DNA of 64,000 nt, taken from contig NZ_LN999825.1 in NCBI RefSeq assembly GCF_001517625.2, positions 1 to 64,000 of the forward strand. Reading direction: 5' to 3'. Positions 9,845-54,170 of the stretch are shown here, one piece after another. Both the position numbers and the translations under genes were made by a program. Source of the DNA: Clostridium sp. AT4 (GTDB lineage: Bacteria > Bacillota > Clostridia > Lachnospirales > Lachnospiraceae). Within the stretch, counting starts at the first letter, position 1, and every line of letters starts with the position of its first letter. Under the pieces are notes generated by a model. That model did no database searches, was not told the DNA's origin, and worked only from the letters and a program-made list of their open reading frames with translations.

Positions 9845-11530
9845 CTATTTTACCTGAGACACGATTTCCCAGATGGAGCGATCCTCAAAGCCAAGCTTCC
9901 AGCAGGCTGCTCCCGCCAGATCATATTCATTGATCAGATCGACCTTAAGCCCCAGCGACTTCTCCTCCTCCATCCAGACGGACTGTACTCCGTTTTCATT
10001 GGAGCTCTCCCCATAATATACTCCCAGGTCATCCAGCCATTCCAGTTCTATATTGTTTTCTTTAATCCAGTTCTTTGCATCCCGGATCCCATAGGCCTTG
10101 GATGTGGTTTTTCCATCCTTTTCCGTCCATATCCTTGTATAAAAAGGAACACTGTTGATCACCTTTTCCTTCGGAACTTCTTTCAGCGTATCTGCAATGC
10201 CCTTTTCTACATAGGGAAGGGATGCCACGGGACCTGCCTCGCCGCCGGCATAATGCTCATCATACCCCATAACGATCACATAATCTGCTACGATCCCCTG
10301 CTCTCTCCTGTTATAAAAGGCGGTATATGCTGATGGCACATAGTTATCCACCGAAAGCACCAGCCCTTTTTTTCTGCAGGCCACAGACATTTCCCGGATA
10401 AACTGAACATAATGGGGACCGGCTTCTGCCTTCAGGCTTTCAAAGTCCAGATTGAAACCGTCAAACCCATAGGTATCTGCCTCTTTCATCAGATTTTCAA
10501 TGAGTTTTCTGCGGTTAGAGGTCACAGACATAAGCTTCTTTGTATCCAGCTCTTTCACGCTCTCTTTAGTGCTCACATTTTCCACCATAGCCCATACCTT
10601 AAGCCCCATATCATGGGCCTGTTCCACATAATCCCTGCTGGCAAAAGAAGTGTAAGTGCCGTCATTTCCAATCACATTAAACCAGGTGGGAACAATCACA
10701 TTCATCCCCTCTGCCGTCTGTGCATATTCCTTAAGAGTGCTGTTTGCTTCCTTTCTGGTAACCTGATGGAATCCCAGACGCACCTTTTCATCCATGGAAA
10801 TGCTTGTATAAACTGGCGCTTCAAACCGACCTTGAGGCGTGATCTCCTGTTCCTTTTCCAGACGCCGGTTCTGCACATATCCGATATAACCGTCTTCCGT
10901 TCTCACTTTAGACCATTTATCCATAGATTCCAGCACTTGAACCGTACTTTTTTCAGAAAGCTCTGTAATGATGTCGCTCTTGATTCCGCCCTTTACCCTG
11001 AGGATACTTTTTTTGCGGACCTGAGCGGTTTTTACAGTCCCCCATACCGTGTCTATAAATACACGTTTGATCTGGCTGGTATCAAAGGATTGTTGACGGA
11101 TATCTGAATAATTCATGATCAGTCCCAACGACAGGTATGCTTCCCCTTCTTTTACCTTCAAAAGAGGCCCCTGTTCTCCCATATCGGACTCATCCGCGTA
11201 TACAATTTCCTCCGGCAGCGCATATACCAGCAGCTTTTCCGTTTCATCCCAGTAAAACCGCTCATTCACATATTCGTTTACCCAGCTTATGGGCAGATAT
11301 ACCTGTCCATCTTCATAAATTCCTTTTTCTTCCTGAAGCTCATTATTTAAAAGGATCGCCACCTGACTGCCCTTTATATGAAATAACTCTGCCTTATCCG
11401 CCATCTCTTTTCCCGGCATATACCGTCTTCCGATCACAAAGCCTGCCGCTGCTCCCGCAATCAGAAGAAGGAGAAAAACCACCGCAAGAAGCGGGCCGAA
11501 ACTGCGTCTTTTTCTTCTTCTGCTCCTCAT
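9845..11530 (-). CDS. Membrane-anchored SH3/GH18 protein (YaaH/SleL-like)
   Basis: This protein has 561 residues from the chosen start. An N-terminal anchor (basic RSRRRKRR, then a hydrophobic helix to about 35) is followed by a copper-amine-oxidase-N-like segment, a bacterial SH3 domain (about 180-240, VQVLESMDKWSKVRTEDGYIGYV) and a GH18 barrel to the C-terminus. The acidic catalytic motif reads DGFNLDFESL, matching DxxDxE with a substitution typical of the YaaH/SleL branch. These are spore-cortex or cell-wall N-acetylglucosaminidases. Start: GGAGG lies 6 bases before the ATG at 11530, whereas 36 residues of open frame upstream have no RBS. Hydrolytic activity is likely but unproven. Confidence 0.85.
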   Translation of the reverse strand: MRSRRRKRRSFGPLLAVVFLLLLIAGAAAGFVIGRRYMPGKEMADKAELFHIKGSQVAILLNNELQEEKGIYEDGQVYLPISWVNEYVNERFYWDETEKLLVYALPEEIVYADESDMGEQGPLLKVKEGEAYLSLGLIMNYSDIRQQSFDTSQIKRVFIDTVWGTVKTAQVRKKSILRVKGGIKSDIITELSEKSTVQVLESMDKWSKVRTEDGYIGYVQNRRLEKEQEITPQGRFEAPVYTSISMDEKVRLGFHQVTRKEANSTLKEYAQTAEGMNVIVPTWFNVIGNDGTYTSFASRDYVEQAHDMGLKVWAMVENVSTKESVKELDTKKLMSVTSNRRKLIENLMKEADTYGFDGFNLDFESLKAEAGPHYVQFIREMSVACRKKGLVLSVDNYVPSAYTAFYNRREQGIVADYVIVMGYDEHYAGGEAGPVASLPYVEKGIADTLKEVPKEKVINSVPFYTRIWTEKDGKTTSKAYGIRDAKNWIKENNIELEWLDDLGVYYGESSNENGVQSVWMEEEKSLGLKVDLINEYDLAGAACWKLGFEDRSIWEIVSQVK

Positions 11531-39576: not shown

Positions 39577-40416
39577 TTATTCATCACACTGATACCACAG
39601 TTCTGCCTGTCCCAAACGTGCAACATCTCCCTTTCTGAATCCTATCTCTTCATATTTTCCCACAATGCTTCCATCCAGAAGTCCTCCCGTCAGTTCCAGA
39701 TAATCTTTTACTATTGCCTTATCTAAAAGGATTCCGTCATGTCCGATTGCAAGTCTGTCAAATTTTTCCTGCTGTTCCCAGATTTTCTTCAGGCTTTCAT
39801 GATAAATCCGAATCAGACGTTTGTCATTATCAGGCTGACGCATTAAAATAATGCTATGGTTCACCGTATCTCCGCTGAATAACACGCGGCTTTGACTGTC
39901 CAGATAGCATACGCTTCCTTCTGAATGTCCCGGCGTATGTAATGCTGTTAATGTTCTCTCCCCCAGCTCAAAAATATCCCCATCCTTAACAGCCGTATAT
40001 TCCCCTGTATATTCCGGTTCCTGCTCAGGTATCAGAGCGGTTATCGCTTCCACGTTGCCTTCACCCGGATAACGGACCGGCACCCGGGTCTTTACATAAA
40101 ACCGGCGCATCTCATTCGTAGCAGGCATTTCCTGAAACAGTTTTTCATCCTCTTTCATCATATATACCGGGCTTTGGGGAAGGGTATAGATCCCTCCGCT
40201 GTGATCTGCATGACCATGGGTCAGAAAAATTTCAACCGGCTTCTGCGTCAGCTCTTTTACTGTCTCTCCCAGATTTCCAATCCCGCAGCCGGTATCAATT
40301 AAAGCGGCCTTTTCTTTTCCTTCTGCCAAGAAGGCATTCACCAGCCTGAACTCACTCAGACACCAGGTATTGGGCGCAATCTCAGTTATTTCATGCTTCA
40401 TTTTCTGCATTTTCAT
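39577..40416 (-). CDS. Metallo-beta-lactamase-fold hydrolase
   Basis: This 279-residue MBL-fold enzyme has the metal motif THGHADHSGG (H-x-H-x-D-H), the LHTPGHSEGSV histidine and the LFSGDTVNH aspartate. Glyoxalase II and lactonase groups share this pattern; the substrate is not known. It overlaps the sugar-symporter gene by 26 bases and the two are likely cotranscribed under the LacI-type regulator. That suggests hydrolysis of an ester, lactone or thioester made from the imported compound (inference). Confidence 0.88.
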   Translation of the reverse strand: MKMQKMKHEITEIAPNTWCLSEFRLVNAFLAEGKEKAALIDTGCGIGNLGETVKELTQKPVEIFLTHGHADHSGGIYTLPQSPVYMMKEDEKLFQEMPATNEMRRFYVKTRVPVRYPGEGNVEAITALIPEQEPEYTGEYTAVKDGDIFELGERTLTALHTPGHSEGSVCYLDSQSRVLFSGDTVNHSIILMRQPDNDKRLIRIYHESLKKIWEQQEKFDRLAIGHDGILLDKAIVKDYLELTGGLLDGSIVGKYEEIGFRKGDVARLGQAELWYQCDE

Positions 40417-41854
40417 TTAAAATTCTCTCCTCTGTCTCCTCGCTTTTTCTGCGAAGTTCCTCGCTGATTTCTCTCATTCGTGCATCGCTTACATTGTAAA
40501 TAAATTTAAAGCAGACAAATGAAAGAAGAGCGCCAATCATAGGCCACGCGCCTCCCAGCATTTTGATTTTTTCTGGTACGCCTGCCAGCTGTCCCATGGA
40601 ACCCAGAGTCGGATCATATCCAACTGCCTCCAAAAGAAGAGCAATGATCGATGTACTGGCACTTGCAGCAAAAAATACAATAAATGTAATCGTTGCGTAG
40701 ACCGTTCCATCATTTCTCTGTCCGGTCAGATACGCCTGATAATCTACTGCGTCTGCGATCAGAGACCATAATAAAAGATTCAGGCAGGTAATAAATGCAG
40801 ATGCCATAAGCTGACAGAAAATCCATTCTTTAGGTCCAAGAGGAAGAAGCATATTGGCTCCATGCATAAGTGCCGATCCCAGAAGCGGCCATGTAACAAG
40901 CGCCTTTTTTCCAAAGCGTTTTACAAGAGGCTTCAAAAATACCATTCCCAAAAGCATTGGCCCCATTGTAGTAAGAGATGCCATAGCAAGACTGGATGTG
41001 TCCTGAAAATATGTCATAAATACATACTGGTTTAAAGTAGATACCGGCTGTATAAATAATTTAACGATCACATATGATGCAACTACCGCAATCATAACCC
41101 GATTATGCAGAAAGGATTTTGCTACCTGAAGATAGTTAATCTTCTCACCATTTTCATTAACCTTAACTTCTTCCACCAGAACGCGTTCATGAATCAGGGT
41201 ATGTGCCAAAAACAGACATACTGTGCAGAACACTCCTAAAATAACAGACAGCAGAATAAATCTTCCGGCAATTGGATCATTATTCTGGTCAAACAGCAGG
41301 AGAGGCGCAATGGTTGTCGTTCCCATGCTGGCTGCAAAACTTCCTATGCTTCGGAAATTGGAAAGCTCCGTTCTCTCAATCTGATTCGTAGTAATAATAT
41401 TGGACATTGCTCCATAAGGAACATTGATAAAGGTACCTATAATACCCCAGAAAAAATAGATGATCAATACCCATGCTATTTTTGCTGCATACGGCATAGC
41501 GTGAACATTCATAAATAGTATCAGCGTAAATATGGCATACGGAACTGCAAACCACAGCAGATACGGCTTCATTTTTCCATTTTTAGCAGGTGCACGGCGA
41601 TCCACCGTTCTCCCGATAAATGTGTCATTTAACGCATCCAACGCCTTACATATAAACACAATACCTGCAAAATGAACTGCATTCATACCTAAAATATTAA
41701 CGCAGAACAACATCAGATAACTGTTTACAATAACCTGCAGGCTGTTAAAGCCAAGGTCGCCGCACAGGTATCCTATCTTATCTCTCAGTCCAAATGCCGG
41801 AGCATTTTTCACATTTTCAATATATGCTATATTCCGTTTCTTCGCTGCTTCCAT
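40391..41854 (-). CDS. GPH-family sugar:cation symporter (MFS)
   Basis: This 487-residue permease has about twelve membrane segments and GPH/MelB features: GLRDKIGYLCGDLGFN near the start and a conserved early segment ALDALNDTFIGRTVDR. Members import glycosides, galactosides or glucuronides with Na+ or H+. The start at 41854 has AAGGA nine bases upstream; the longer frame to 41920 overlaps lacI more deeply and has no RBS. It overlaps the LacI-type gene's end by 38 bases, so the three genes form one operon. Confidence 0.88.
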   Translation of the reverse strand: MEAAKKRNIAYIENVKNAPAFGLRDKIGYLCGDLGFNSLQVIVNSYLMLFCVNILGMNAVHFAGIVFICKALDALNDTFIGRTVDRRAPAKNGKMKPYLLWFAVPYAIFTLILFMNVHAMPYAAKIAWVLIIYFFWGIIGTFINVPYGAMSNIITTNQIERTELSNFRSIGSFAASMGTTTIAPLLLFDQNNDPIAGRFILLSVILGVFCTVCLFLAHTLIHERVLVEEVKVNENGEKINYLQVAKSFLHNRVMIAVVASYVIVKLFIQPVSTLNQYVFMTYFQDTSSLAMASLTTMGPMLLGMVFLKPLVKRFGKKALVTWPLLGSALMHGANMLLPLGPKEWIFCQLMASAFITCLNLLLWSLIADAVDYQAYLTGQRNDGTVYATITFIVFFAASASTSIIALLLEAVGYDPTLGSMGQLAGVPEKIKMLGGAWPMIGALLSFVCFKFIYNVSDARMREISEELRRKSEETEERILNENAENEA

Positions 41855-42929
41855 ACTTTTCTTTCCTTCTTCTGTAGTAGACATAACTGTTGGACTGAAT
41901 AATAATACGCGGAAGAACACTGTACCTTACAGGAAGCTTTTCATTCTTAACGATATTATTAAACAGCAGTTTCAGAGCCTGATATCCTACACTGAAGGGT
42001 TTTTTATCAATCACAGCGTCCAGCGCGCCTGTCTGCAATGCCTGACAGCTTTCCTCAAACAGTTCGCTTCCAATCACCGCTCCTGCATTTCTTCGTATCT
42101 TCGGATCAATTCTGAGAAATGCCGCTGTATGACGGGCACATGTAAAGTATATGCCTGACGGGTACTCTCCTTCTGACAGCTCCCGGGCGATTCGTTCTGA
42201 CTGCTCTTCATTCAGTTTCAGTGCAGTTATACTGCACCTCAGTTCCGGACGTCTGCGTTTTAATTCTTCTGCAAATACAGCTGCATTCTTATCTGCAAAC
42301 GGAAGATCCTGACTGAATATCTTTATGTTTCCCTCCCCAACTGTCATCTTGTCCATAAGCTCTGCGGCCATTTTACCTGCAAGCTCTTCATCCGGACCTA
42401 CCAGACAGGAGTATTGCGTATCATCCCGGCATTTCTGCAGAATGACAACAGGAATCCGTTTTCCCATAATACGGTTCAAAATAGCGGTATACCGCCTGTC
42501 ATCTCCCAGATCCTCTTTATAAACGATTACTCCATCATAGCGAAATGGCCGTTCCTGATAAATATTATTCAGACAGGATAAAAATACCATACTCTCCAAA
42601 TCATAAGCCGGATAATAATATTCCTGAAAAATAATATTATAGGGTTCAACCTCTTCTCTTTCCTGAAAATATCCATTCAGAATCTCCTGAACATACAGAT
42701 GGCTGTCTGCATCGCTTTTTGGAAAAATCACCGCAATATGGATTGGTTTTTTTCGAAGGGAAGACGCTACATAATTAATCTCGTATCCCTGCTGTTTTGC
42801 AATTTCCATAATGCGTGTCCGCAGCTGTTCACCGCAGCCTTCCTTGCCATTCAGCACCCGGTGTACAGTTGTGATAGAAACGCCTGCTGTTTCTGCAATT
42901 TGCTTCAGTGTGGTTGTTGATCTGCTCAT
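41817..42929 (-). CDS. LacI-family transcription regulator
   Basis: This 370-residue protein has an N-terminal LacI helix-turn-helix (TLKQIAETAGVSITTVHRVLNG split as LKQIAETAG and TTVHRVLNG) with hinge, and a periplasmic-binding-fold ligand domain (about 65-340). It should control the downstream symporter and MBL gene in response to a sugar. Two palindromic sites lie 40-70 bases upstream of its start (42971-42997), consistent with autoregulation. Confidence 0.92.
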   Translation of the reverse strand: MSRSTTTLKQIAETAGVSITTVHRVLNGKEGCGEQLRTRIMEIAKQQGYEINYVASSLRKKPIHIAVIFPKSDADSHLYVQEILNGYFQEREEVEPYNIIFQEYYYPAYDLESMVFLSCLNNIYQERPFRYDGVIVYKEDLGDDRRYTAILNRIMGKRIPVVILQKCRDDTQYSCLVGPDEELAGKMAAELMDKMTVGEGNIKIFSQDLPFADKNAAVFAEELKRRRPELRCSITALKLNEEQSERIARELSEGEYPSGIYFTCARHTAAFLRIDPKIRRNAGAVIGSELFEESCQALQTGALDAVIDKKPFSVGYQALKLLFNNIVKNEKLPVRYSVLPRIIIQSNSYVYYRRRKEKYGSSEETEYSIY

Positions 42930-43245: not shown

Positions 43246-43300
43246 AAAAAACGGCCCCCATCCAACACATCACACCACATCGGACAGGGAGCCGTTTTTA
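43246..43300 (-). terminator. Terminator of the TRAP operon
   Basis: A hairpin with arms AAAAACGGC / GCCGTTTTT and a further GGCCCCC/GGGAGCC-type pairing. The A-run at 43246-43251 gives a T-run on the minus strand, 18 bases past the dctM stop. Confidence 0.7.
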
Positions 43301-43317
43301 TTTACCATATTCTTATT

Positions 43318-44616
43318 TTATCCCCCATAAAAAAGAGTGGGAAGCAGCATGGTAAATCCCGGAACAAACGTAAGAAGCATCAGTACCAGAATCATGCACA
43401 GATAGAACGGAAGTGTTGCCTTTGCAATCTTTTCTATCGGCAGATGGGAAATTGCCGATGAAATAAACAGGCAGGTTCCAACCGGGGGAGTCAAAAGACC
43501 GATTCCGCAGTTTAATACCATAATAATACCGAACTGAATAGGGGTAATTCCTATGCTGGTTGCTACCGGCAGCAGGATGGGCGTAGCGATCAGGATAATC
43601 GGGGCCATATCCATTACGCATCCCAGTACCAGCAGAATCGCATTGATCAGAAGGGCAATCACAATCGGGCTTTCTGAAAAACCGATAATCGCATTGGCTG
43701 CCAGATCCGGAACATGCAGATAGGTCAGGCAGTAATCGAAAATACTGGATGTGCCGCAGAGAATCAGTACGATTGATAAGGTATCAATACATTCGCCCAG
43801 AGCGTTCCATACATCCTTCCAGGTCATCTCTCTGTAGATGCACAGGCCTACGATCAGACTGTAGATAACTGCGATTGCTGCGGATTCTGTAGCGGTAAGT
43901 ACTCCAAATACAACGCCTACCACTACAATCAATACAGACAACAGAGCCCAGATGGCTGATTTAAAGCATTTGATAAAGGTTTTCAGATGGAAGGGCTGGC
44001 CCTTGGGGTAATTTCTCTTAACTGAGATAATATAAGAACCGATCATCAGGGAAAGAGCCAGCATTACGCCCGGAATATATCCGGCCATAAACAGAGCGCC
44101 TACAGAAAGTCCGCCTGCAGCAGTTGCGTAAATTACCATGTTGTGGGAGGGCGGAATCAAAAGTCCCTCAACAGAGGATGTGATGGTAACAGCCGTAGAA
44201 AAATCAGCGTCATATCCCATATTTACCATCATGGGAATCTCAATATTTCCCAAAGAAGCCGTATCTGCAGAGGCTGATCCTGAAAGACCTCCAAAAAACA
44301 GGGATGCCAGAATATTTACCATGGCTGCGCCTCCGCGCATCCAGCCTACCATAGAATCGGCAAGCATAATCAGCCTCTCTGATATACCGCCGCTTCCCAT
44401 CAGTCCTCCCATGGTGATAAAGAAGGGCACTGCCATCAATGAAAAGGAATTCAGGCCCTTTACCATCTGCTGGCACACATTGGAAAGAGGAATCCCCAGA
44501 TACAGCAGACAGAGACAGGACGCGATCCCCACTGCAAATGCAATATTAACCCGAAGAAGGATTAAAATAAAAAACGTAGCTAAAAGAATAATTACTGCGA
44601 TTGTATTACTGTCCAC
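43318..44616 (-). CDS. dctM: TRAP transporter large permease (DctM type)
   Basis: This 432-residue membrane protein has twelve or more hydrophobic segments and the TRAP large-subunit pattern (IIPPSHNMVIYA, GLLTPPVGTCLF). Together with DctQ it forms the Na+-driven channel that takes solute from the DctP binding protein. TRAP systems import carboxylates, sugar acids, sialic acid or sulfonates. Its start overlaps dctQ by 11 bases. It is the last gene of the isomerase/desulfurase operon. Confidence 0.93.
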   Translation of the reverse strand: MDSNTIAVIILLATFFILILLRVNIAFAVGIASCLCLLYLGIPLSNVCQQMVKGLNSFSLMAVPFFITMGGLMGSGGISERLIMLADSMVGWMRGGAAMVNILASLFFGGLSGSASADTASLGNIEIPMMVNMGYDADFSTAVTITSSVEGLLIPPSHNMVIYATAAGGLSVGALFMAGYIPGVMLALSLMIGSYIISVKRNYPKGQPFHLKTFIKCFKSAIWALLSVLIVVVGVVFGVLTATESAAIAVIYSLIVGLCIYREMTWKDVWNALGECIDTLSIVLILCGTSSIFDYCLTYLHVPDLAANAIIGFSESPIVIALLINAILLVLGCVMDMAPIILIATPILLPVATSIGITPIQFGIIMVLNCGIGLLTPPVGTCLFISSAISHLPIEKIAKATLPFYLCMILVLMLLTFVPGFTMLLPTLFYGG

Positions 44617-45127
44617 TTACGGCTTCCCCCTTTCCCAGAAATTTCCTTATATCCTTAACCAGCGTTTCCAACTGGAAAATACACATTGCCACGCCAGCAA
44701 AGGGCACCGGCGCATACAGCCAGAATCTGGAAAGCGACGGAAGGCTGACATAAACTGCTTTTCCCGCATTTACCGCATAAGGAAATCCCACAAATACCAG
44801 CATCAGAGAAAATGCCAGCACCAGAAGATCATCGAAAATTTCTATCCCATCTACCAGCTTTTCCGGCATATAACGATCAAGAGATGTCATTCGAATGTGA
44901 GTTTTCTTTCGAACGGCCAGAGCTGCTCCTATAAATGCCATATAAATCATACAGGTCAGCGTCATCTCCTCGCTCCAGGCAGGGTCCGGAATAAAGGGAA
45001 TATACCTTCCCGCAACTGCCATTGAGGTAATTGCAATTTCCGCCACAAGAAACAGCTTACAGATTACTTTAATAATACTGTATAAATAATCCAGTATTCC
45101 TTTTTTTACCTTTTTCTCCTCAGTCAT
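44606..45127 (-). CDS. dctQ: TRAP transporter small permease (DctQ type)
   Basis: This 173-residue protein has four membrane segments, the usual size for the small TRAP subunit. Trp39-type features are seen in DPAWSEEMTL, a conserved region of DctQ. It works with DctM and DctP. It starts 26 bases after dctP's stop and overlaps dctM. The RBS is GGAGGGGAA. Confidence 0.9.
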   Translation of the reverse strand: MTEEKKVKKGILDYLYSIIKVICKLFLVAEIAITSMAVAGRYIPFIPDPAWSEEMTLTCMIYMAFIGAALAVRKKTHIRMTSLDRYMPEKLVDGIEIFDDLLVLAFSLMLVFVGFPYAVNAGKAVYVSLPSLSRFWLYAPVPFAGVAMCIFQLETLVKDIRKFLGKGEAVSGQ

Positions 45128-45153
45128 AATTCCCCTCCTTCAGCTTACAGACT

Positions 45154-46224
45154 TTATTCAGCTAAAGAAGTAATCTGCTTATACTCCTCTTCCATTCCCT
45201 TTGTATACTGAGAAATGATGTCAGCGCAGGCTTCCTTCCAGGGCGTATAATCTGTTACTTCTGTAAATTTAACACCTTTTTCCTTCAGGCGGGCAATACT
45301 CTCAGACTCTTCTTTTTCTGAAAGCTCTTTTGCGTACTGGCTGGTTTCCTTTCCGGCCTCCATAATGGCATCCTGCTGTCCCTTTGAAAGCTCTGCCCAG
45401 GATGCATCTGATACGACAACCTCTGAAGCTGACATGGTATGATGGGACAGGATTACATTGGGCGCAACCTCATTAAATGCATTTGATTCATAAAGAGGCA
45501 CCGGCTGGTCTGCGCCGTCTACCACTCCGGACTGCAGGCTGGTATACAGTTCATTAAAGGATATTACTGTCGGATATGCCCCCAGAGCTTCTACTACGCC
45601 TGTAAGAATCGGATCACTGGATACACGGATTTTTCTTCCTTTTAAACCTTCAATTCCATTTACTTCCTCAGACATGAAGAAATCTCTGAAGCCCTCTTCC
45701 TGATAATACAGTCCGTGAATGCCAAGTCCCAGTTCTTCCGGTTCTGCAAGAATCTTCTGTGCCAGATCTGTTTCCGTAAATTTCCAGAACTGGTCTCTGT
45801 TTTCAAAGGTAAACGGTACGCTCAATAAGGAAGACAGCTTTGCTCCATAGCTGTTTAAGGCAAAACAGGAAATACGGCATAAATCCACCGTTCCGCTGTT
45901 GTTTGTCATTCCGTCAAGAACATCTGCCTCAGCTCCCAGCACACCGCTGGCCTGAATATCAATCACAACGCTTCCGTTAGTTTTTTCCTCTACTTTGTCC
46001 TTAAAAAAAGTGGCAATTTCCCCATCCAGTGAATCAATGGAGTTTACCTCTGCATAAACAAGGGTAACGGCTCCGTCTGCCTTTGCAGACGTCTCCTTTG
46101 GTGCCTGCTCCGTTTCCCCGGAAGGAGCCTGGCTTGGTTTTTCCGGCGCTTTTAAGCCGCAGCCTCCCAGTGTACCAATCATTCCGGCAGCAGCTATAAG
46201 TGCAATCATTTTTTTGTACTTCAT
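45154..46224 (-). CDS. dctP: TRAP transporter solute-binding lipoprotein (DctP type)
   Basis: This 356-residue protein has a lipoprotein signal with LGGC (Cys22) and the DctP fold. Family features are the GLYYQEEGFRDFF region, the GLKGRKIRVSSDP motif with the conserved Arg for carboxylate binding, and GADQPVPLYESNAF. The conserved Arg suggests a carboxylate or other anionic ligand, not a neutral sugar (inference from the family). A hairpin lies just before it in the operon. The RBS is GGAGG. Confidence 0.92.
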   Translation of the reverse strand: MKYKKMIALIAAAGMIGTLGGCGLKAPEKPSQAPSGETEQAPKETSAKADGAVTLVYAEVNSIDSLDGEIATFFKDKVEEKTNGSVVIDIQASGVLGAEADVLDGMTNNSGTVDLCRISCFALNSYGAKLSSLLSVPFTFENRDQFWKFTETDLAQKILAEPEELGLGIHGLYYQEEGFRDFFMSEEVNGIEGLKGRKIRVSSDPILTGVVEALGAYPTVISFNELYTSLQSGVVDGADQPVPLYESNAFNEVAPNVILSHHTMSASEVVVSDASWAELSKGQQDAIMEAGKETSQYAKELSEKEESESIARLKEKGVKFTEVTDYTPWKEACADIISQYTKGMEEEYKQITSLAE

Positions 46225-46267
46225 AAAATTTCCTCCCTCATATACAGTCCTTTTTACAGCAAATCCT

Positions 46268-46304
46268 GCCGGTATCCCAAAATCTTTCCCCAGAGGATAC
46301 CGGC
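46268..46304 (-). other. Intercistronic hairpin between isomerase and dctP
   Basis: A perfect 10-bp stem, GCCGGTATCC/GGATACCGGC, with a 17-base loop. No T-run follows on the minus strand. Such hairpins can protect a binding-protein mRNA and raise its level over other operon genes. Confidence 0.6.
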
Positions 46305-46321
46305 AAAATATATCTTTTAAT

Positions 46322-47773
46322 TTAGTGGAAATACTCTACCTCAAAGCCAACTACCTTTCCCAGCTCCTGAAGCTCTTTTACATGGTTTCCGTAAATAATG
46401 GCCTGATGATGCCCGTAGCCGCCGTTGGCAAGTGCCTGACGGAATTCTCTTGCTCCGCCTTCTACGTCATAGTAAACAGCAGGGCTGCAGTAAACAGGAC
46501 GGAATTCACATCCAATGGTATGTCCTACCGCAACCATCATCTTTGTGCCCCGTCTGTTGAAACGGCCAAAGGTCACAACCTGTCCTTCATGCTCATTCAT
46601 ATCTACATGGTAATGCGTTCCCCATCCATGGGTGGTAAACGGTGCCAGCTCGTATTTCTGCTCAGGCTCTCCGAAACCGTTCATCTTTCTGGTTGGAACT
46701 GCATGATGGATTTCCAGAACATCATGGTCAAAGGTCTGTCCGGGCTGTGTTAACAGGTTCGGCATTCCCAGCTGCTCCAGAGTTTTGCTTCCCTTAAGCA
46801 CCAGTACAGGATTTCCCATAAACACGCTCTGTCTGGTAAGATACATCATCATCATCATTGCCATCCAGACTGCCAGATCCTCTTCACATGCAGAAGGAAT
46901 ACGGTCGTCTTTATTTAAAGAATGGCACAGACAGGGAACGAATTTCTTTTCCCACGGAATCCGACTGGCACAGAGCTCCTTACAGGGTGTTGTAAATGCA
47001 TTGCAGTCATACTGTTCCATCATCTTTCTTACTGCATGGAAATAGCGAAGGTCATTGCAAACATATTCCGTTTTAACATCTGTCTTCTGAGCGCCCTCTA
47101 CCAGTGCCTCTGCCTCTTTCTGAATACCCTCATCTACAGGTGTATCATCATAGTATTTCATAATCTGACGGAAGTCGATACGATTGTTACGGATGCCATA
47201 CTGCGTAAACAGATGGGTCAGATCGCAAGTACTCGTGTTTACAGAAGCCGGCGTCTGCTCCGTATTGGAAAGAATCAGAATCTTGGTATTGGCTACTGCC
47301 TTTCTTACCTGAAGATTAGTAAGAATCTTGTTGTACTCTTCATAATCATGAGCCATATATGCCTCTAAGCCGATATCACGGTAAAAGCCGATCAGGTCAA
47401 TGGGAGTAGGTCCCAGGTTAATCATTGAAATCGGTTTTCTCAGCCGTTCAATTCCGGGAACACGGTATGTAATCAGATATAAATCAACCTCATGGTTCTC
47501 AGGAAGAAGCTTGTCAAATTCGGAATCCTTTACTACAAAGCTCTCATCAAACTCAATGTAAACAGGCTCCATCAGGTTGCATCGGGTCAGATCCAGATTT
47601 GCCTTCAGTTCATCATACCACTGCTTAAACTCTTCTTTGCCCAGACGCTTTTCATATTCGGGAGTACCAGTCTCTTCCGGTCCTACACGGCAGGGTCCCT
47701 CCCAGTAATCAGAATGTACCAGATTGGAAAACACCGGTCTTAAGTTTACCTTCACATCCATTGCATACTTCAT
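46322..47773 (-). CDS. Fucose/arabinose-isomerase-family protein
   Basis: This 483-residue protein is best placed in the L-fucose/L-arabinose isomerase superfamily, which interconverts aldoses and ketoses with a bound Mn2+. Supporting stretches are the early alpha/beta part (VDLYLITYRVPGIERLRKP), the middle FTTPCKELCASRIP, and the C-terminal TTHGWGTHYHVDMNE with paired His residues. Exact metal ligands cannot be fixed by eye. It starts with an ATGA overlap with the SufE-like stop, so translation is coupled. Coupling of a sugar isomerase to a sulfur-mobilising pair is unusual; the substrate is not known. Confidence 0.72.
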   Translation of the reverse strand: MKYAMDVKVNLRPVFSNLVHSDYWEGPCRVGPEETGTPEYEKRLGKEEFKQWYDELKANLDLTRCNLMEPVYIEFDESFVVKDSEFDKLLPENHEVDLYLITYRVPGIERLRKPISMINLGPTPIDLIGFYRDIGLEAYMAHDYEEYNKILTNLQVRKAVANTKILILSNTEQTPASVNTSTCDLTHLFTQYGIRNNRIDFRQIMKYYDDTPVDEGIQKEAEALVEGAQKTDVKTEYVCNDLRYFHAVRKMMEQYDCNAFTTPCKELCASRIPWEKKFVPCLCHSLNKDDRIPSACEEDLAVWMAMMMMMYLTRQSVFMGNPVLVLKGSKTLEQLGMPNLLTQPGQTFDHDVLEIHHAVPTRKMNGFGEPEQKYELAPFTTHGWGTHYHVDMNEHEGQVVTFGRFNRRGTKMMVAVGHTIGCEFRPVYCSPAVYYDVEGGAREFRQALANGGYGHHQAIIYGNHVKELQELGKVVGFEVEYFH

Positions 47774-48204
47774 AGCTTTATTTCCTCCTCTAACATGTTC
47801 TTTGTTCTATTTTCAAAATGCGCCATTTTCCAGTAGCATTTGAAAAGTCCATTTTCCTTTATTTCCGGATAAATCACATCATCTGAAATGCATTTCAGAA
47901 ACTCCGGCGGATTTTCCCATATCTCTGTTTCTTTTTTTCCGTCATACAGATCCTTATATATATGTAAAATGCCTTTTACCAGAACAGAATCACTGTCGGC
48001 CCTGAAATAAATCAGGCCGTTCTCTTTCAGAACCTCTGTCCATATTCCCGTTTTGCAGCCTTCAATCCGGTATTGATCCCTGCGTATCTCCTGTTCATCC
48101 AGCCTTCCTATTCCCAGCCCGATCAGGTATTCCCCCTGAGAGAACGGATCGCACAGCTCGCTGAAATCCTGCGTATACTTTTTAATTTTTTCCTCTATGC
48201 TCAT
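47770..48204 (-). CDS. sufE: SufE-like sulfur acceptor protein
   Basis: This 144-residue protein follows the SufE pattern, with the reactive Cys50 in YRIEGCKTGIW. The early YLIGLGIGRLDEQE and the late FENRTKNMLEEEI are also family-like. SufE takes the persulfide from SufS and passes it on. Its gene overlaps both sufS and the isomerase by four bases (ATGA). No SufB, SufC, SufD or SufU is nearby, so the sulfur need not go to Fe-S clusters. Confidence 0.85.
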   Translation of the reverse strand: MSIEEKIKKYTQDFSELCDPFSQGEYLIGLGIGRLDEQEIRRDQYRIEGCKTGIWTEVLKENGLIYFRADSDSVLVKGILHIYKDLYDGKKETEIWENPPEFLKCISDDVIYPEIKENGLFKCYWKMAHFENRTKNMLEEEIKL

Positions 48205-49403
48205 ACCTTTCTCAGACTGTTCAGCCCTTCCAGGGCAGCTGCCAGACGGTCTGAATCCTCCTTTGTGTTATAAACTGCAAGCGACACCCTGCACAGGCTC
48301 TGACGCTCCAGACGCTTCATCAGGGGGTATGCGCAATGGGAACCGCATCGGACTGCAATATCCTTAAGTCCTAAAAGCACTCCCACATCATAAGCCCCTA
48401 TCCCATCCATTTCAAACAGGATAATCGGACTGTCCGGACCGGAATTTAAAATATGCAGGCCCTTTATTTTTTCGAGCCTTTGCCTTGTATAAGCTGCAAG
48501 AGCCTTTTCATGCTCTAAAAGCGCTTCAAACTCATTTTCCTGTAAAAATTCAATTGCCGCCTCCAGTCCCAGCGCTCCTCCGATATTCTGGGTTCCGCCT
48601 TCGAACTTTTCTGTATTGCTTTTATATATGATCTGATCTCCGTCTCCCCGTAAAACCATATCCCCTCCATACAGAAGAGGGGGAATCAGCTCCAGACAGC
48701 TTTGCTTTCCATACAGCACCCCAAGTCCCATGGGACCGTATATTTTATGAGAGGAAAAACTCAGAAAATCACAGTCCAATTCCCGGACGGAAATCATCCG
48801 GTGAACAATCAGCTGGGTGGCATCCACCAGTACCAGAGCGCCTTTGTTATGTGCCTCAGAAATAATTTTCTTTAAATCGGGACAGAAACCGCCTGCATTT
48901 GACATGCCTGTAACAGCAACAAGCTTTGTATGGCAGTCTATTAATTTCAGCAGCTTCTCTGTCTTTAAAGATCCATCCTCTTCTGCTTCTGCCACCCGGA
49001 ATTGTGCACCGGTTCTCCGGCAAAGCTCCTTCCATGGAAAATAATTGGAGGAATGCTCCAGCTCCGTAGTTACTATATTGTTCTCCGGCCCTGTCAGGCC
49101 ATCCATTCCGGCAGCCACGAGATTAATTGCCTCTGTACTGCTTTTTGCATATACAATTTCCTCCGGCGTACGTGCGTCAATCCAATGGCTGACCGTCTGT
49201 TTTGAGTGCGCATAGTATTCTGACGCCCTGCTGCTGAGTGGATAATTCCCCCGATGAATGTTGGAGTTTTCTGATAAATAAAACTGCCTTACCCTGTCAA
49301 TTACCCCTTCGGGCTTCTGGGAGGTGGCTGCATTATCCAGATAAACCAGCCTTTTATTCTGACTGAAAACAGGGAACTTACTGCGTATCTCCTGTTGTTC
49401 CAT
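48201..49403 (-). CDS. sufS: SufS-type cysteine desulfurase
   Basis: This 400-residue class V aminotransferase-fold enzyme has PLP Lys220 in FSSHKIYGP, His117 in ELEHSSN, Asp194 in LVDATQLIVH, and the sulfur-carrying Cys357 in RCGSHCAYP. SufS removes sulfur from cysteine to make a persulfide. The motif normally reads RTGHHCAQP, so Cys353 and Ser355 are substitutions near the active Cys. ATG at 49403 follows GTGAGG; it lies inside the end of the preceding gene. Adjacent sufE fits a SufSE pair, but the isomerase partner is not part of a known suf operon. Confidence 0.9.
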   Translation of the reverse strand: MEQQEIRSKFPVFSQNKRLVYLDNAATSQKPEGVIDRVRQFYLSENSNIHRGNYPLSSRASEYYAHSKQTVSHWIDARTPEEIVYAKSSTEAINLVAAGMDGLTGPENNIVTTELEHSSNYFPWKELCRRTGAQFRVAEAEEDGSLKTEKLLKLIDCHTKLVAVTGMSNAGGFCPDLKKIISEAHNKGALVLVDATQLIVHRMISVRELDCDFLSFSSHKIYGPMGLGVLYGKQSCLELIPPLLYGGDMVLRGDGDQIIYKSNTEKFEGGTQNIGGALGLEAAIEFLQENEFEALLEHEKALAAYTRQRLEKIKGLHILNSGPDSPIILFEMDGIGAYDVGVLLGLKDIAVRCGSHCAYPLMKRLERQSLCRVSLAVYNTKEDSDRLAAALEGLNSLRKV

Positions 49404-49818
49404 ATTCCTCACCTGTCTTTCCATACTTTATAACCATACGGCATAAATCATCTATGGAAGCAATTTCAACTGCATCCTCATCCGTAAAATGAATTCCCAG
49501 TTCCTTTTCAATAAAAAGTATCAAAAGCGTTTTTTTCTGTGTCACCAGATTACTCTGATGACAGTCATATTTTTCTATTTTCGACTGAATCACCTGATCC
49601 GGCAGAGAAGCGTCCTCCTTATTCCGGCTTTTAATGCTTAATATGATAAGCTTTCTGATATCGTCTGTTTCATCCTCCGGTATCATCAGCTTGCAGCACA
49701 CCGCCTTTTTCAAAAGAGGCTTTATGGTATTTTCATTCCGTTCATTTCCGGAAATATATGCAATTTCCTCTAAAAGCTTTTTTGACTCATTTGCCTTTTC
49801 AATTATCGTTTCAATCAT
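49378..49818 (-). CDS. Unknown protein with an ACP-like C-terminal helix pattern
   Basis: This 146-residue protein is helical and charged, with Cys-Cys near residue 42. The C-terminal stretch (about 97-132, FIEKELGIHFTDEDAVEIASIDDLCRMVI) resembles helices II-IV of acyl carrier proteins. The DSL phosphopantetheine site is not clear: a Ser lies some way ahead, in CHQSNLVT. It could be a carrier without a prosthetic group or an unrelated helical protein. It is the first gene of the operon and overlaps the desulfurase by 26 bases. Confidence 0.5.
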   Translation of the reverse strand: MIETIIEKANESKKLLEEIAYISGNERNENTIKPLLKKAVCCKLMIPEDETDDIRKLIILSIKSRNKEDASLPDQVIQSKIEKYDCHQSNLVTQKKTLLILFIEKELGIHFTDEDAVEIASIDDLCRMVIKYGKTGEEYGTTGDTQ

Positions 49819-49971
49819 ACAATTCCACCGTCTGTTTTAAACAATTTCTCAATATGTTCATGAAATTATTTGTTTATTCTTGTGTTTTCTTGATTTTTAT
49901 TATATAATATGCACAAATTATTTTTTGATATAAAAATCATGTTTTTTTGCATTTTATTCAAAGGAGAACCC

Positions 49972-50886
49972 ATGTCAACTCTTTACAAAAGCTTTTTGGA
50001 AAATTTCCCCGATGAATTTTCCATTGCCCATAAGATTGCCCCGCAGACAGAAAAAAAGACCTTCCATATGCATAAGCAGCTGGAGGTCATTTACACAATC
50101 TCTTCTAATGTGAAATGCCGGACGGAAAAAGGCATCCGGTCGATCCCCAAAAACAGTCTGGTTCTTCTTAATTCCATGGATCTTCATTATTTCTTTACAG
50201 ATCCCGGAAGCGGCCTGTGTGACCGGTATGTTCTTTACTTTTCACCCTCTTTTATCTCACCTCTTTCCACTCAGGAGGTTAACCTTCTGGAAAGCTTTAA
50301 TGTAAGCCGGATGGAGCATCCCATCATCCTTTCAGCGCCCGAATGTCAGCAAATCCACTGGCTGTACCTGATGGATCAGATGATTTCTCAGCTGAAGCTT
50401 GTCAATTCTGCTTCCCCCTGTCAGGACAGCTTCGGAACTGTACTTCATATCAAATTCCTTTTAGGGCAGTTTCTTTTAATGGTAAATCAGCTTTACTGGC
50501 AATCTTACGGGAATGTCCAAAGCGCTCTATACAAAAACCATTCTCATCTTGTAATGGAAATATGCGAGTTTATACACAGCCATATCCAATGCCCTATTTC
50601 TGCAGATTCACTTGCCGACCACTTTCATATCAGTAAAACCCAGCTGTACTACCTCTTTAAAGAGGTTCTTGGAACTACTGCCGGAGATTTTCTGATTGAA
50701 TGCAAAATGACCTGCGCTAAAAATTATCTGATCAACAGCGAGTATTCTGTTGAAATGATCAGTGAACTGGTTGGTTACCACAATTTAAGTTCTTTTTCCA
50801 GAACCTTTAAAGCCCTTTCCGACTGCAGTCCCCTGCAATACAGGAAAAAACACAAGCTTCATTCTCCGAATGATAAAGGGGAATAA
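49972..50886 (+). CDS. AraC-family transcription regulator
   Basis: This 304-residue protein has an N-terminal cupin-like sensor (about 10-130, HMHKQLEVIYT) and a C-terminal AraC double helix-turn-helix (about 195-295, SADSLADHFHISKTQLYYLFKE and EMISELVGYHNLSSFSRTFK in their key residues). It is divergent from the desulfurase/isomerase/TRAP operon, with 153 bases between, and is its likely regulator. The start at 49972 follows AAGGAG by six bases. Confidence 0.92.
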   Translation: MSTLYKSFLENFPDEFSIAHKIAPQTEKKTFHMHKQLEVIYTISSNVKCRTEKGIRSIPKNSLVLLNSMDLHYFFTDPGSGLCDRYVLYFSPSFISPLSTQEVNLLESFNVSRMEHPIILSAPECQQIHWLYLMDQMISQLKLVNSASPCQDSFGTVLHIKFLLGQFLLMVNQLYWQSYGNVQSALYKNHSHLVMEICEFIHSHIQCPISADSLADHFHISKTQLYYLFKEVLGTTAGDFLIECKMTCAKNYLINSEYSVEMISELVGYHNLSSFSRTFKALSDCSPLQYRKKHKLHSPNDKGE

Positions 50887-51604: not shown

Positions 51605-52216
51605 TTACTTCTCCTCCCCCTCCGGATACTCCACCACATAAAATTCATATCCGTTCACCACGGTCGTACTTCCATATGTATCCTTCCGTTTAAATTTTCC
51701 TCCGTAATTGGCATGGACATGGCCGTGGAAAAAAAATTTCGGGTGGTATTTATCCATCAGGGTAAGAAATGCTTTAAAGCCCCGGTGAGGCAGATCCTCC
51801 ATATCATTCAGGCCGAAAGCCGGCGCATGGGTTACAAGGATATCAAAGCCTCTGTGCCAGAGAAGCTTCCATCTCAGCTTTCGGACGCGGGCCCGCATCT
51901 GGCGCTCTGTGTACTGGTTGGCCGAGCCCGGAATATATTCCATAGAACCTCCCAGCCCCAGGATCCGGACTCCCTTATACACATAAATATCGTCCTCAAC
52001 GCAGATACAGCCCTCCGGCGGCTTATAGGCGTATTTATTGTCATGGTTGCCCCTTACATAAACTAAAGGCGCATGACACACGCTGGCAAAAAAAGTCAGA
52101 TATTCCGGCGGAAGATCTCCGCAGGAAATCAAAAGGTCAATGTCCTTAATCCTCTCAGGATCATAATATTCATACAGGAGCTTTGACTCCTGATCTGATA
52201 AAATCATTATATTCAT
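51605..52216 (-). CDS. Calcineurin-like metallophosphoesterase
   Basis: This 203-residue cytosolic phosphoesterase has a first motif SDQES, CGDLP, VRGNHD, THAPAFG and HGHVHANYG, a nearly full metal-binding set. The first motif lacks the usual D-x-H (it reads LSDQES), a point to test. The start at 52216 lies five bases after the preceding stop (52221). The substrate is unknown. It is coupled to the ParB/BMP fusion gene. Confidence 0.85.
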   Translation of the reverse strand: MNIMILSDQESKLLYEYYDPERIKDIDLLISCGDLPPEYLTFFASVCHAPLVYVRGNHDNKYAYKPPEGCICVEDDIYVYKGVRILGLGGSMEYIPGSANQYTERQMRARVRKLRWKLLWHRGFDILVTHAPAFGLNDMEDLPHRGFKAFLTLMDKYHPKFFFHGHVHANYGGKFKRKDTYGSTTVVNGYEFYVVEYPEGEEK

Positions 52217-52220
52217 ACCG

Positions 52221-54170
52221 CTATTTCTCCGTCTGTACACTCTCGTCTACACGGATGCCCTGAAGCTGCATCCGTTCTCTTGCCTCGTCATTCAATTCTT
52301 CCAGATCCGGCACGCGTCCCACTACATTTTCAGCCAGCCAGTTCATGGTTACAATATCTTCTGAGCGCAGACGTTCTCCCTCCCTGCATCGGATGATTCC
52401 CTCCTGGTCATACATGAAACCGTCAAAGGGATGAAAGCTTCCGGAACGAACGGAATTTTTCAGAAATTCAATCAGGCGCAGCGTACCGTGAGGCAGGTTT
52501 CCGGAACAGATTACGTCGATCACATCTGCCGACATTCCCCACCAGTAATTAACCGCTTTTTTGCCCTTTCTGGCTTCCAGCTCCTCATTGCTTTCAAAGG
52601 CCAGCTGGATCATCTGCTCGTAGAATTTCCCCCAGTTCCAGATAGGCGAAGCCAGATTGAAAACCTCTCCATTATCTTCCTGTACATAAAGGCCGTATTC
52701 CCTGGACGGATGTCTGGGGATAATCATATCCTTTCCGGAAATGTACCGGATCCCCTGTTCTCTCAGCCGTTCTGCCGCTGTCTTTTCATGGTTGATCCTG
52801 CGCCATTCCAGATATACCTTTACATAAGGGTTGATCATCCGCGCGCCCATGGCAAAAGCGTTGATATCTGCAAGAATCCCATAGGTGGGCTGATCTGCAA
52901 TATACCCCAGCTTATCCTCTCTGGAAACGGCTGCCGCTATAGCTCCCATAAGGAATTTTGCCTCATACATCCTTGCATAATACGTACAGATAGAGGAATA
53001 GGACATATTTACAGAACAGTTGTAAATCTTTACCTCAGGATGCAGAATGGCGGATCTCACGCTCTGATTTACCATCTTGGAATTTGTTGTAAATATCATG
53101 GTGCAGCCGGCCTGAACCAGTTTTTCTATGGCCCGGGCGATATCCCCTTCTGTATCTGCCCCTTCGATAACTACCGTGGAAATACGCCCCTCAAAGGCCT
53201 CCTCCAGATACTGCCGCCCCAGCTCATGGCCGTAATTCCAGCTGGAATTTTCAATGGTATCCGCATAAACAAATCCGATTTTCAAATGCTCCGGCATATC
53301 ATCTGCCGGAAGAAGCCATTTCCATATGGACGGTTTATGCTCCGTTTCCATTTCCTCCGGTTCTTCGATCAGCTCTACCTTCCGTCCCCGGTTAGCAAGC
53401 TGGATCTCTTCCCAGATTTTCATCAGCGCCCGGTACATTTCCCGTTCTGTCTGTCCTTTTACGCTGTCGTAACCGTAGATTTCGATATAGACTAAAAATG
53501 CATCTCCCTCTGTGAGCTGAAGCTGATCCCCATGGGCCATGCTGTAGGCCTTTGCAAAACGCCCGTAGGAGGAGCGGAAAAATAAACGTTCCTCCTGAGT
53601 CCAGACCTGATCCGGCTCCATTCCCATCAGTTCCAAAAGCTTCTTATAGCTGCCTTCCTTGCTGAACCATACATCACAGTTTGAAGAAATGCGGTAAAAA
53701 TCCAGAAATTCATAATACAGCCTGTTTTCCTTGTCATCTGTACGTTTGGGGATCAGGCGCGTTACGCTTCCCGGTATGCTGTAGGCACCCAGATATTTCA
53801 TTACACTGACCCGCTTATTTCCCTCCTGAACGTAAAACTGATTCATAAATTCGTAGGCAACAACCGGTTCCTGGATTCCCTCCTCTACCTGATACTTGTA
53901 AAGGGATGTCCATTTAGCCCCAAATTCGGACCGTTCCGGCAAAAGGGGCATAAAATTACTGGCAAAGGAGCTGGAACGCTCTGCAGTCTTTGTCCCTACC
54001 ATTTTTGCCAGAGGAATATCCATTACCCCCAGATTGACAGTTGCTACAATATCTGTATTCGCCAGAATGTTATCCAGCACGGGAAGGTATGGATACTCGC
54101 CTCTTGCTAAAGCATCCTGATACCGCTTTCTTCCCATTTTCAATGCATATCCATAATCTGTATCCGGCAT
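52221..54170 (-). CDS. ParB-like/BMP (nucleoside-binding) fusion protein without signal peptide
   Basis: This 649-residue protein has an N-terminal half with a ParB/Srx-like segment (about 40-127, ending FYVQEGNKRVSVMKYL) and a C-terminal half (about 290-640) that follows the BMP/PnrA substrate-binding fold: LKIGFVYADTIENSSWNYGH and YIADQPTYGILADINAFAMGAR in their key residues. BMP proteins normally bind nucleosides outside the cell, but no signal peptide, lipobox or TM segment is present, so this one is probably cytosolic. A cytosolic nucleoside sensor is possible. It lies between mfd and the phosphoesterase. Confidence 0.75.
   Translation of the reverse strand: MPDTDYGYALKMGRKRYQDALARGEYPYLPVLDNILANTDIVATVNLGVMDIPLAKMVGTKTAERSSSFASNFMPLLPERSEFGAKWTSLYKYQVEEGIQEPVVAYEFMNQFYVQEGNKRVSVMKYLGAYSIPGSVTRLIPKRTDDKENRLYYEFLDFYRISSNCDVWFSKEGSYKKLLELMGMEPDQVWTQEERLFFRSSYGRFAKAYSMAHGDQLQLTEGDAFLVYIEIYGYDSVKGQTEREMYRALMKIWEEIQLANRGRKVELIEEPEEMETEHKPSIWKWLLPADDMPEHLKIGFVYADTIENSSWNYGHELGRQYLEEAFEGRISTVVIEGADTEGDIARAIEKLVQAGCTMIFTTNSKMVNQSVRSAILHPEVKIYNCSVNMSYSSICTYYARMYEAKFLMGAIAAAVSREDKLGYIADQPTYGILADINAFAMGARMINPYVKVYLEWRRINHEKTAAERLREQGIRYISGKDMIIPRHPSREYGLYVQEDNGEVFNLASPIWNWGKFYEQMIQLAFESNEELEARKGKKAVNYWWGMSADVIDVICSGNLPHGTLRLIEFLKNSVRSGSFHPFDGFMYDQEGIIRCREGERLRSEDIVTMNWLAENVVGRVPDLEELNDEARERMQLQGIRVDESVQTEK

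Follow-up and report, generated by a model that had tools for sequence, protein, structure and literature searches.

An isomerase-fold enzyme encoded with a candidate private sulfur relay in a TRAP importer operon of Clostridium sp. AT4

Gene content and organization of the locus

The window analyzed here is a stretch of 64,000 nucleotides from Clostridium sp. AT4, in which the genes for a small protein (UNK), SufS, SufE, and a fucose/arabinose-isomerase-fold enzyme (ISO) overlap successively by 26, 4, and 4 bases (Table 1). The three genes that come next encode the DctP, DctQ, and DctM components of a TRAP importer, all of which score above the cut-offs of the TRAP component profiles (209.7, 97, and 371.3 bits, respectively). 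These coordinates confirm the layout given in an initial annotation of the same DNA, which had described overlaps of 4 to 26 bases, a TRAP importer, and a divergent AraC regulator. Terminator-like matches occurred above chance (14 observed, 6.5 expected) and promoter-like matches at chance level (11 observed, 12.8 expected). SufBCD scaffold genes are absent from the window operon, and the single SUFBD-core match lies on a separate contig. The solved binding proteins nearest to DctP are TRAP DctP proteins (96 to 117 bits). Many such TRAP DctP proteins bind uronates or aldonates, which gives a hint of the substrate and no more.

Table 1. Features of the operon and its flanks, in window coordinates
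Feature	Position	Strand	Remarks
UNK, 146 aa	49378..49818	-	likely acyl-carrier-protein fold; invariant Cys86 (Asp85-Cys86)
SufS-type cysteine desulfurase	48201..49403	-	first ATG 49424; His124, Lys227, Cys364 catalytic (numbered from 49424)
SufE-type sulfur acceptor	47770..48204	-	Cys50
ISO, fucose/arabinose-isomerase-fold enzyme	46322..47773	-	metal-ligand candidates and invariant Cys
DctP, TRAP substrate-binding protein	45154..46224	-	profile score over cut-off
DctQ, TRAP small permease subunit	44606..45127	-	profile score over cut-off
DctM, TRAP large permease subunit	43318..44616	-	profile score over cut-off
Terminator-like hairpin and T run	43255..43290	-	directly 3' of DctM; consensus match only
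Divergent UNK/araC intergenic region, 153 bases	49819..49971	.	presumed promoters and operator
AraC-family regulator, divergent	49972..50886	+	first ATG 49909; better ribosome site at 49972

Pairing with desulfurases and small partner proteins

ISO belongs to a small group of fucose/arabinose-isomerase-fold proteins, hereafter the clan; of 398 genomes in a phylum sample, only that of the window had it (at E 1e-20). The genome-neighborhood survey that the initial annotation had proposed for the isomerase found a cysteine desulfurase gene next to ISO, or separated from it by one small gene, at 25 of 27 clan loci, compared with 0 of 20 control loci of ordinary fucose-isomerase-like genes from the same order, which were picked by hand for contig room and score spread, not at random, and three of which (L128, L129, and L135, with frames of about 600 aa) had no match to the ISO profile. 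Both exceptions are cut off by contig ends, which lie 468 bases from the start of L016 and 284 bases from that of L017. As the clan set includes near-identical loci from sister species (e.g., L063/L064 and L057/L059), the 27 loci are not 27 independent cases, and since the desulfurases of the positive check were already in the profiles, its score of 10/10 shows only that the neighbor scan works. Dropped before counting were the window itself or loci whose contigs, judged by length, are those of L018, L023, and L017 (L001-L004, L028, L029, L033), loci at the same places as L025-L027 (L005, L009-L012) or as L055-L066 (L040-L054), a 30-residue remnant with a stop (L006/L034), and ordinary relatives (L007/L031, L008/L032, L013/L030), of which L030, L031, and L032 served as the outgroup.

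The desulfurases of the clan are of three kinds, SufS, EF2568-type, and IscS/NifS-type, and the catalytic His, Lys, and Cys (His124, Lys227, and Cys364 in window numbering) are kept in all 25 aligned sequences. The SufS kind does not form one branch of the ISO tree, in which the IscS-type loci are most closely related to L062, a SufS locus. With three kinds in one clan, any tree needs no fewer than two switches of kind, or else independent gains; this count cannot tell whether the desulfurase was exchanged or the pairing was gained separately, and the tree has some long branches.

Small proteins accompany most of these desulfurases. SufE and, by BLAST, UNK each occur in 11 of 13 SufS-type loci (L024 and L062 lack SufE, and L062 also lacks UNK), and a C-x-E-x-GW protein of about 97 aa occurs in 9 of 9 EF2568-type loci with its Cys kept in all nine; three IscS-type loci have no recognized small carrier. 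The SufE acceptor Cys is present in 11 of 12 rows, the twelfth being a fragment (L017). UNK matches no credible Pfam or NCBIfam family, nor did five UNK rows and three C-x-E-x-GW rows give a credible Pfam match. UNK is likely to be an acyl-carrier-protein (ACP)-fold protein. In contrast to ACP itself and to the ACP of the NFS1-ISD11-ACP complex, UNK has no Asp-Ser-Leu attachment motif: the window protein has Thr93 at the corresponding position, where the 12 rows have Ser in one (L014), Ala in eight, Val in one, and Met in one, with no preceding Asp. UNK further differs in its invariant Cys86 and in being able to fuse to SufS, as it does at the SufS N terminus in L024 and L066, the UNK of L066 being matched by a profile built without it (E 5.2e-13). 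Among 392 genomes of the order, the UNK and C-x-E-x-GW profiles gave three and eight strong matches, respectively, all of them profile rows at ISO loci, and no further clear match. The independent Pfam model for SufE exceeded its cut-off in 2 of 146 genomes of the order, both times inside these operons, with one further match below cut-off.

The claim that the genes work together is well supported by the conserved pairing at clan loci, by the UNK-SufS fusions, and by the finding that, among the genomes searched, SufE, UNK, and the ISO2 small protein have clear matches in these operons only. Taken together, the pairing, control, SufE-rarity, UNK, and ISO-residue results support the coupling well and make a role in general Fe-S assembly unlikely.

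The ISO protein and its cysteines

A fold search assigned ISO to the fucose/arabinose isomerase fold, though a sequence search found no link to isomerases in the PDB. Comparison by hhalign was weak with AraA (probability 26.8), compared with 96.6 to 99.2 for four other sets of isomerase-like relatives. The Fucose_iso_C score of ISO lies below cut-off (20.8 versus 29.3 bits), and its sole NCBIfam match is SftI, at 28.9 bits against an equivalog cut-off of 700; ISO shares the broad isomerase family with SftI through this weak profile match, but no transaldolase/transketolase gene was recognized in the window operon.

We compared the 27 clan rows with 17 ordinary relatives, which we take to be COG2407-like: the 12 control isomerases that score best with the ISO profile, plus five from loci read earlier, two of which (L055 and L026) lie inside clan loci. 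All 27 clan rows have D299, H357, and H456, as do 17, 16, and 17 of the relatives, respectively, whereas E266 is present in 26/27 clan rows and only 1/17 relatives, leaving its role unsure; from the alignment, we assume the first three, and less surely E266, to be the metal ligands. Seven cysteines (C28, C257, C264, C268, C281, C296, and C429) are invariant across the clan, five of them within residues 257 to 296, around the isomerase metal-ligand positions. C264, C281, and C296 are also found in 16/17 relatives, C257, C268, and C429 in 3, 0, and 3 of 17, and C28 in one, the other 16 being gapped there. As judged from its sequence, ISO is probably a metal-dependent enzyme, with a predicted isomerase-type metal site and extra clan cysteines. 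Compared to L-fucose and L-arabinose isomerases, it has the additional residues C28, C257, C268, C429, and H20, falls below Pfam and NCBIfam cut-offs, and is accompanied by a desulfurase wherever the locus is uncut.

A putative sulfur relay and the fate of its sulfur

We propose that the locus is an inducible uptake-and-conversion operon, in which AraC would sense the imported compound and the TRAP importer, judging by its family, would take up an anionic, sugar-acid-like substrate. With its catalytic residues in place, SufS would draw sulfur from cysteine as a persulfide and pass it to SufE, and the fusions and gene neighborhood suggest that UNK docks on SufS as a partner or carrier. The client of the relay would be ISO, and a private sulfur relay to this enzyme is in our judgment highly probable. 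Dedicated desulfurase-client pairs such as YrvO-MnmA and NifZ-ThiI likewise place a private desulfurase gene beside one sulfur-using enzyme with no general scaffold, but here the client has a sugar-isomerase fold, its operon also encodes an importer and has a dedicated regulator, and one clan has three desulfurase kinds. The use to which ISO puts the sulfur is less certain. Our best bet, a cautious one, is that sulfur is consumed in the ISO reaction on an imported sugar-like compound: ISO would turn the sugar into an enediol or ketose, with sulfane sulfur transferred to, or reacting with, the product, much as in the sulfur-carrier and ketose chemistry of ThiG and BexX. The putative co-induction of desulfurase and importer suggests that the need for sulfur follows the flow of substrate. 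More tentatively, ISO might take persulfide from a private relay whose kind can be exchanged (the window type having an ACP-fold carrier) and sulfurate or otherwise transform an imported sugar or sugar acid in the catabolism of gut anaerobes, as a new class of chemistry.

The importers of the clan loci vary between TRAP, PTS with a class II aldolase, ascorbate-type PTS, and TTT, and two loci have ABC genes in the vicinity (PTS_EIIA_2 is the family of the L018 EIIA; the PTS EIIC of L024 has no Pfam match and its kind was assigned by eye). This variety fits a sugar or sugar-acid substrate, and it is possible that sulfur is added to or removed from an imported sugar-like or anionic compound. As importers and neighboring enzymes differ between subclades, one common reaction is not assured. 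One locus, L060, has genes for a TudS-related desulfidase and for a polar amino-acid ABC importer immediately upstream on the same strand. The long gene run of L056 includes an SMP-30-type lactonase, an HpaI-type aldolase, and MDH2-like and SDR genes.

The main alternative, a plausible one though short of probable, is that the desulfurase set matures ISO by building a private Fe-S, metal-sulfide, or persulfide center on its cysteines, after which ISO works as an isomerase or dehydratase of the imported sugar and sulfur is needed once per enzyme, not once per turnover. The clustering of invariant cysteines around the metal-ligand positions fits such a center, in which the clan cysteines may serve to bind a metal or cluster; no sugar-acid dehydratase was recognized by eye in the L056 gene run, so ISO could be that enzyme. 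Three of the cysteines, however, are shared with nearly all ordinary relatives, 12 of 17 of which come from controls with no desulfurase nearby, and the locus has no scaffold gene. Given the other NifS-like genes in genome G000 (three matches, one with an internal stop), a private desulfurase at each complete locus, in three kinds, would exceed the normal need for maturation.

Catabolism of a sulfo-sugar, in which ISO would isomerize sulfoquinovose or a similar sugar and the persulfide would trap released sulfite as thiosulfate, appears improbable. It draws on the SftI match of the window ISO, though that is far below cut-off, and on L025, where a YihQ-type sulfoquinovosidase (986.5 bits, cut-off 553; 1012.3 bits with 6pnr and 821.7 with E. 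coli YihQ 5aed) lies in the same gene run, between the small Cys protein and ISO. A tblastn search with this enzyme, which covered some loci in part only as flank lengths differ, found a close match in L025 alone of the 27 loci, and a sulfoquinovose pathway is therefore not favored as a general answer. The GH31 relatives in L058, L060, L063, and L064 are only 21 to 25% identical to it (those of L058, L060, and L063 well below the YihQ cut-off), and neither a C-S lyase nor a sulfite exporter was recognized in the window operon.

Rather less probable still is the import and splitting of a cysteine-sugar conjugate, the sugar then going to ISO and the cysteine to SufSE in separate catabolic arms: though the amino-acid importer adjoins ISO in L060 and a desulfurase is present at every one of the 25 loci uncut by a contig end, cysteine breakdown would not need a SufE/UNK persulfide relay, no shared conjugate hydrolase was recognized by eye across loci, and the clan cysteines would go unexplained. 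Least probable, and very much so, is an ordinary extra Fe-S assembly pair sitting by chance in a sugar operon, since SufS and SufE, though homologous to the SUF pair with catalytic Cys kept, lack SufBCD at the locus, SufE matches above cut-off are restricted to these operons among the 146 genomes, and the pairing recurs with three desulfurase kinds and in no control. The view that the persulfide is not for Fe-S assembly is supported for general assembly, and no relatives were seen in which SufSE stands separate and is shared with ordinary Fe-S genes; a private metal-sulfur center inside ISO itself may still be what the relay serves.

Within the terms searched, no description of this gene set was found in the literature or in passages of PMC13219744, PMC11659671, and PMC9978102, in agreement with the earlier statement that no characterized pathway with it is known. 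The clan defines a testable gene set beyond one odd operon, with small partner proteins that the genomes searched did not clearly match at any other place. Should the sulfur end up on the sugar, sugar and sulfur metabolism in the gut would be linked by a new route; should it serve to mature the enzyme, ISO would be an isomerase or dehydratase of a new, sulfur-dependent type. In both cases, UNK would represent a new type of partner for desulfurases, one that probably has an ACP fold and that would parallel, in bacteria, the ACP-containing NFS1 complex of mitochondria.

Desulfurase pairing in the isomerase clan

Relatives of ISO, the protein of the window's operon with a predicted fucose/arabinose-isomerase fold, were gathered by database searches and their gene surroundings inspected, giving a clan of 27 loci in which sister species are partly included. 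A cysteine desulfurase adjoins ISO, or lies one small gene off, at 25 of these, and the catalytic His, Lys and Cys are kept in all 25 aligned desulfurases. At the other two (L016 and L017), ISO starts 468 and 284 bases from the contig end, respectively, and a SufE fragment is still visible at L017. Among 20 hand-picked control loci with ordinary fucose-isomerase-like genes from the same order, Lachnospirales, none had a desulfurase across about 12.4 kb. The clan is rare: of 392 Lachnospirales genomes, 12 carry it, and in a sample of the phylum it occurs in the window's own genome alone (1/398). The operon may have been lost at L034, where the P-type ATPase gene downstream of an ISO remnant resembles the gene after ISO in L018.

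Three kinds of desulfurase occur in the clan. ISO1, the window type, is partnered by SufS, by the small protein UNK and mostly by SufE; ISO2 is accompanied at 9/9 loci by an EF2568-type desulfurase and a C-x-E-x-G-W protein of ~97 aa; and ISO3 has an IscS/NifS-type desulfurase at three loci (L026, L027, L056) and a SufS-type one at L062. The remote locus L066 encodes SufE and a UNK-SufS fusion, confirmed by an independent test. Among the loci examined, SufE was not recognisable at L024 and L062, and small carrier proteins occur at most clan loci, not all. Three desulfurase kinds require at least two changes whatever the tree; a label count on the ISO tree gives two, which both exchange and separate gain fit, and the SufS kind does not form one branch, the position of long branches such as L066 being unsure.

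Outside ISO loci the accessory proteins had no clear match in the genomes searched. Of 146 genomes of the order, two had SufE above the Pfam cut-off, each within an ISO operon; a third match fell below it. The UNK profile matched strongly in three of 392 genomes, each time its own row at an ISO locus, and weakly in two frames of ~90 aa (over 34 and 38 residues) that are probably ordinary acyl carrier proteins, the fold that prediction makes likely for UNK itself. The C-x-E-x-G-W profile recovered its own rows in 8/392 genomes, exactly the sample's eight ISO2 genomes. Because these matches are the profiles' own rows, the searches demonstrate absence elsewhere rather than new finds: neither protein had a case outside the clan in the 392 genomes.

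Importers and neighbouring genes

TRAP importers accompany ISO in the window, at L014, L015, L019 and L023 and at three ISO3 loci. At L018, L020 and L024, PTS genes are found alongside a class II aldolase, the EIIA of L018 belonging to PTS_EIIA_2. An ascorbate-type PTS EIIC occurs at L062, TTT genes (TctC, TctA) at L021, and ABC permease genes, on the strand opposite ISO, near L022 and L055. The YihQ-type sulfoquinovosidase at L025 is the sole close match among the 27 loci; other GH31 enzymes lie at L058, L060, L063 and L064. Further along L025, beyond AraC-type and DeoR-type regulator genes, are a glycyl-radical enzyme and its activase. The two glutaredoxin-like proteins found a few kilobases from ISO are 38% identical.

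In the window, a terminator-like hairpin separates the operon from three downstream genes, none of which (0/3) was matched in L001-L024. A 649-aa protein (Pfam Bmp at residues 297-475) and its adjoining phosphoesterase recur as a pair ~1 kb past the ISO3-type PTS operon in L062.

Coordinates of features at ISO loci and related loci
Locus	Coordinates	Feature
Window	39577-42929	LacI regulator, MFS_2-type sugar transporter, metallo-beta-lactamase-fold protein; downstream of operon, same strand
Window	51605-54170	649-aa protein (PnrA-like substrate-binding domain in second half only), phosphoesterase
L024	6367-7977	N-terminal UNK fusion to SufS
L066	6413-7990	N-terminal UNK fusion to SufS
L025	4297-14891	Gene run: YihQ-type sulfoquinovosidase, ISO2, EF2568-type desulfurase, small Cys protein
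L060	6355-9160	Polar amino-acid ABC importer genes and putative TudS-related desulfidase of the CD3072 family (167.6 bits against a cut-off of 130), immediately upstream of ISO2, same strand
L057	9917-10255	Glutaredoxin-like protein, just under Pfam Glutaredoxin cut-off
L066	9671-10051	Glutaredoxin-like protein, over Pfam Glutaredoxin cut-off
L031	3858-10289	Ordinary fucose-isomerase-like gene with nucleoside phosphorylase, IF-2B/MtnA-like, class II aldolase, amidohydrolase genes; together resembling a 5-deoxyribose or methylthioribose salvage set
L034 (G002:C69)	10765-10854	30-residue remnant of ISO C-terminus, with stop codon

Conserved residues and the use of the sulfur

Seven cysteines of ISO are invariant in all 27 clan rows. 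Each of C264, C281 and C296 is shared by 16 of 17 ordinary relatives, whereas C257, C268 and C429 are clan markers (3/17, 0/17 and 3/17). C28 is found in 1/17, the other 16 having a gap there, which may mean no more than that this region fails to align. Ordinary relatives keep D299, H357 and H456 in 17, 16 and 17 of 17 cases, and E266 in just one.

We propose that persulfide would pass from SufS to SufE, with UNK as a partner of SufS or a carrier, that ISO would be the client of this relay, and that the imported substrate may be sugar-like. Our preferred but tentative reading is that the sulfur is consumed on the substrate: a private desulfurase at each complete locus, in three kinds and in an operon with its own importer and regulator, would fit a flux-matched sulfur demand better than one-time maturation, though by argument only. 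Only slightly less plausible is that the sulfur matures ISO. That the sulfur traps sulfite is improbable, and that it belongs to a cysteine-sugar conjugate more improbable still. Searches of open-access literature found no description of the gene set. We provisionally place it with the known type of a private desulfurase and its client, and see a reasonable chance of something more.
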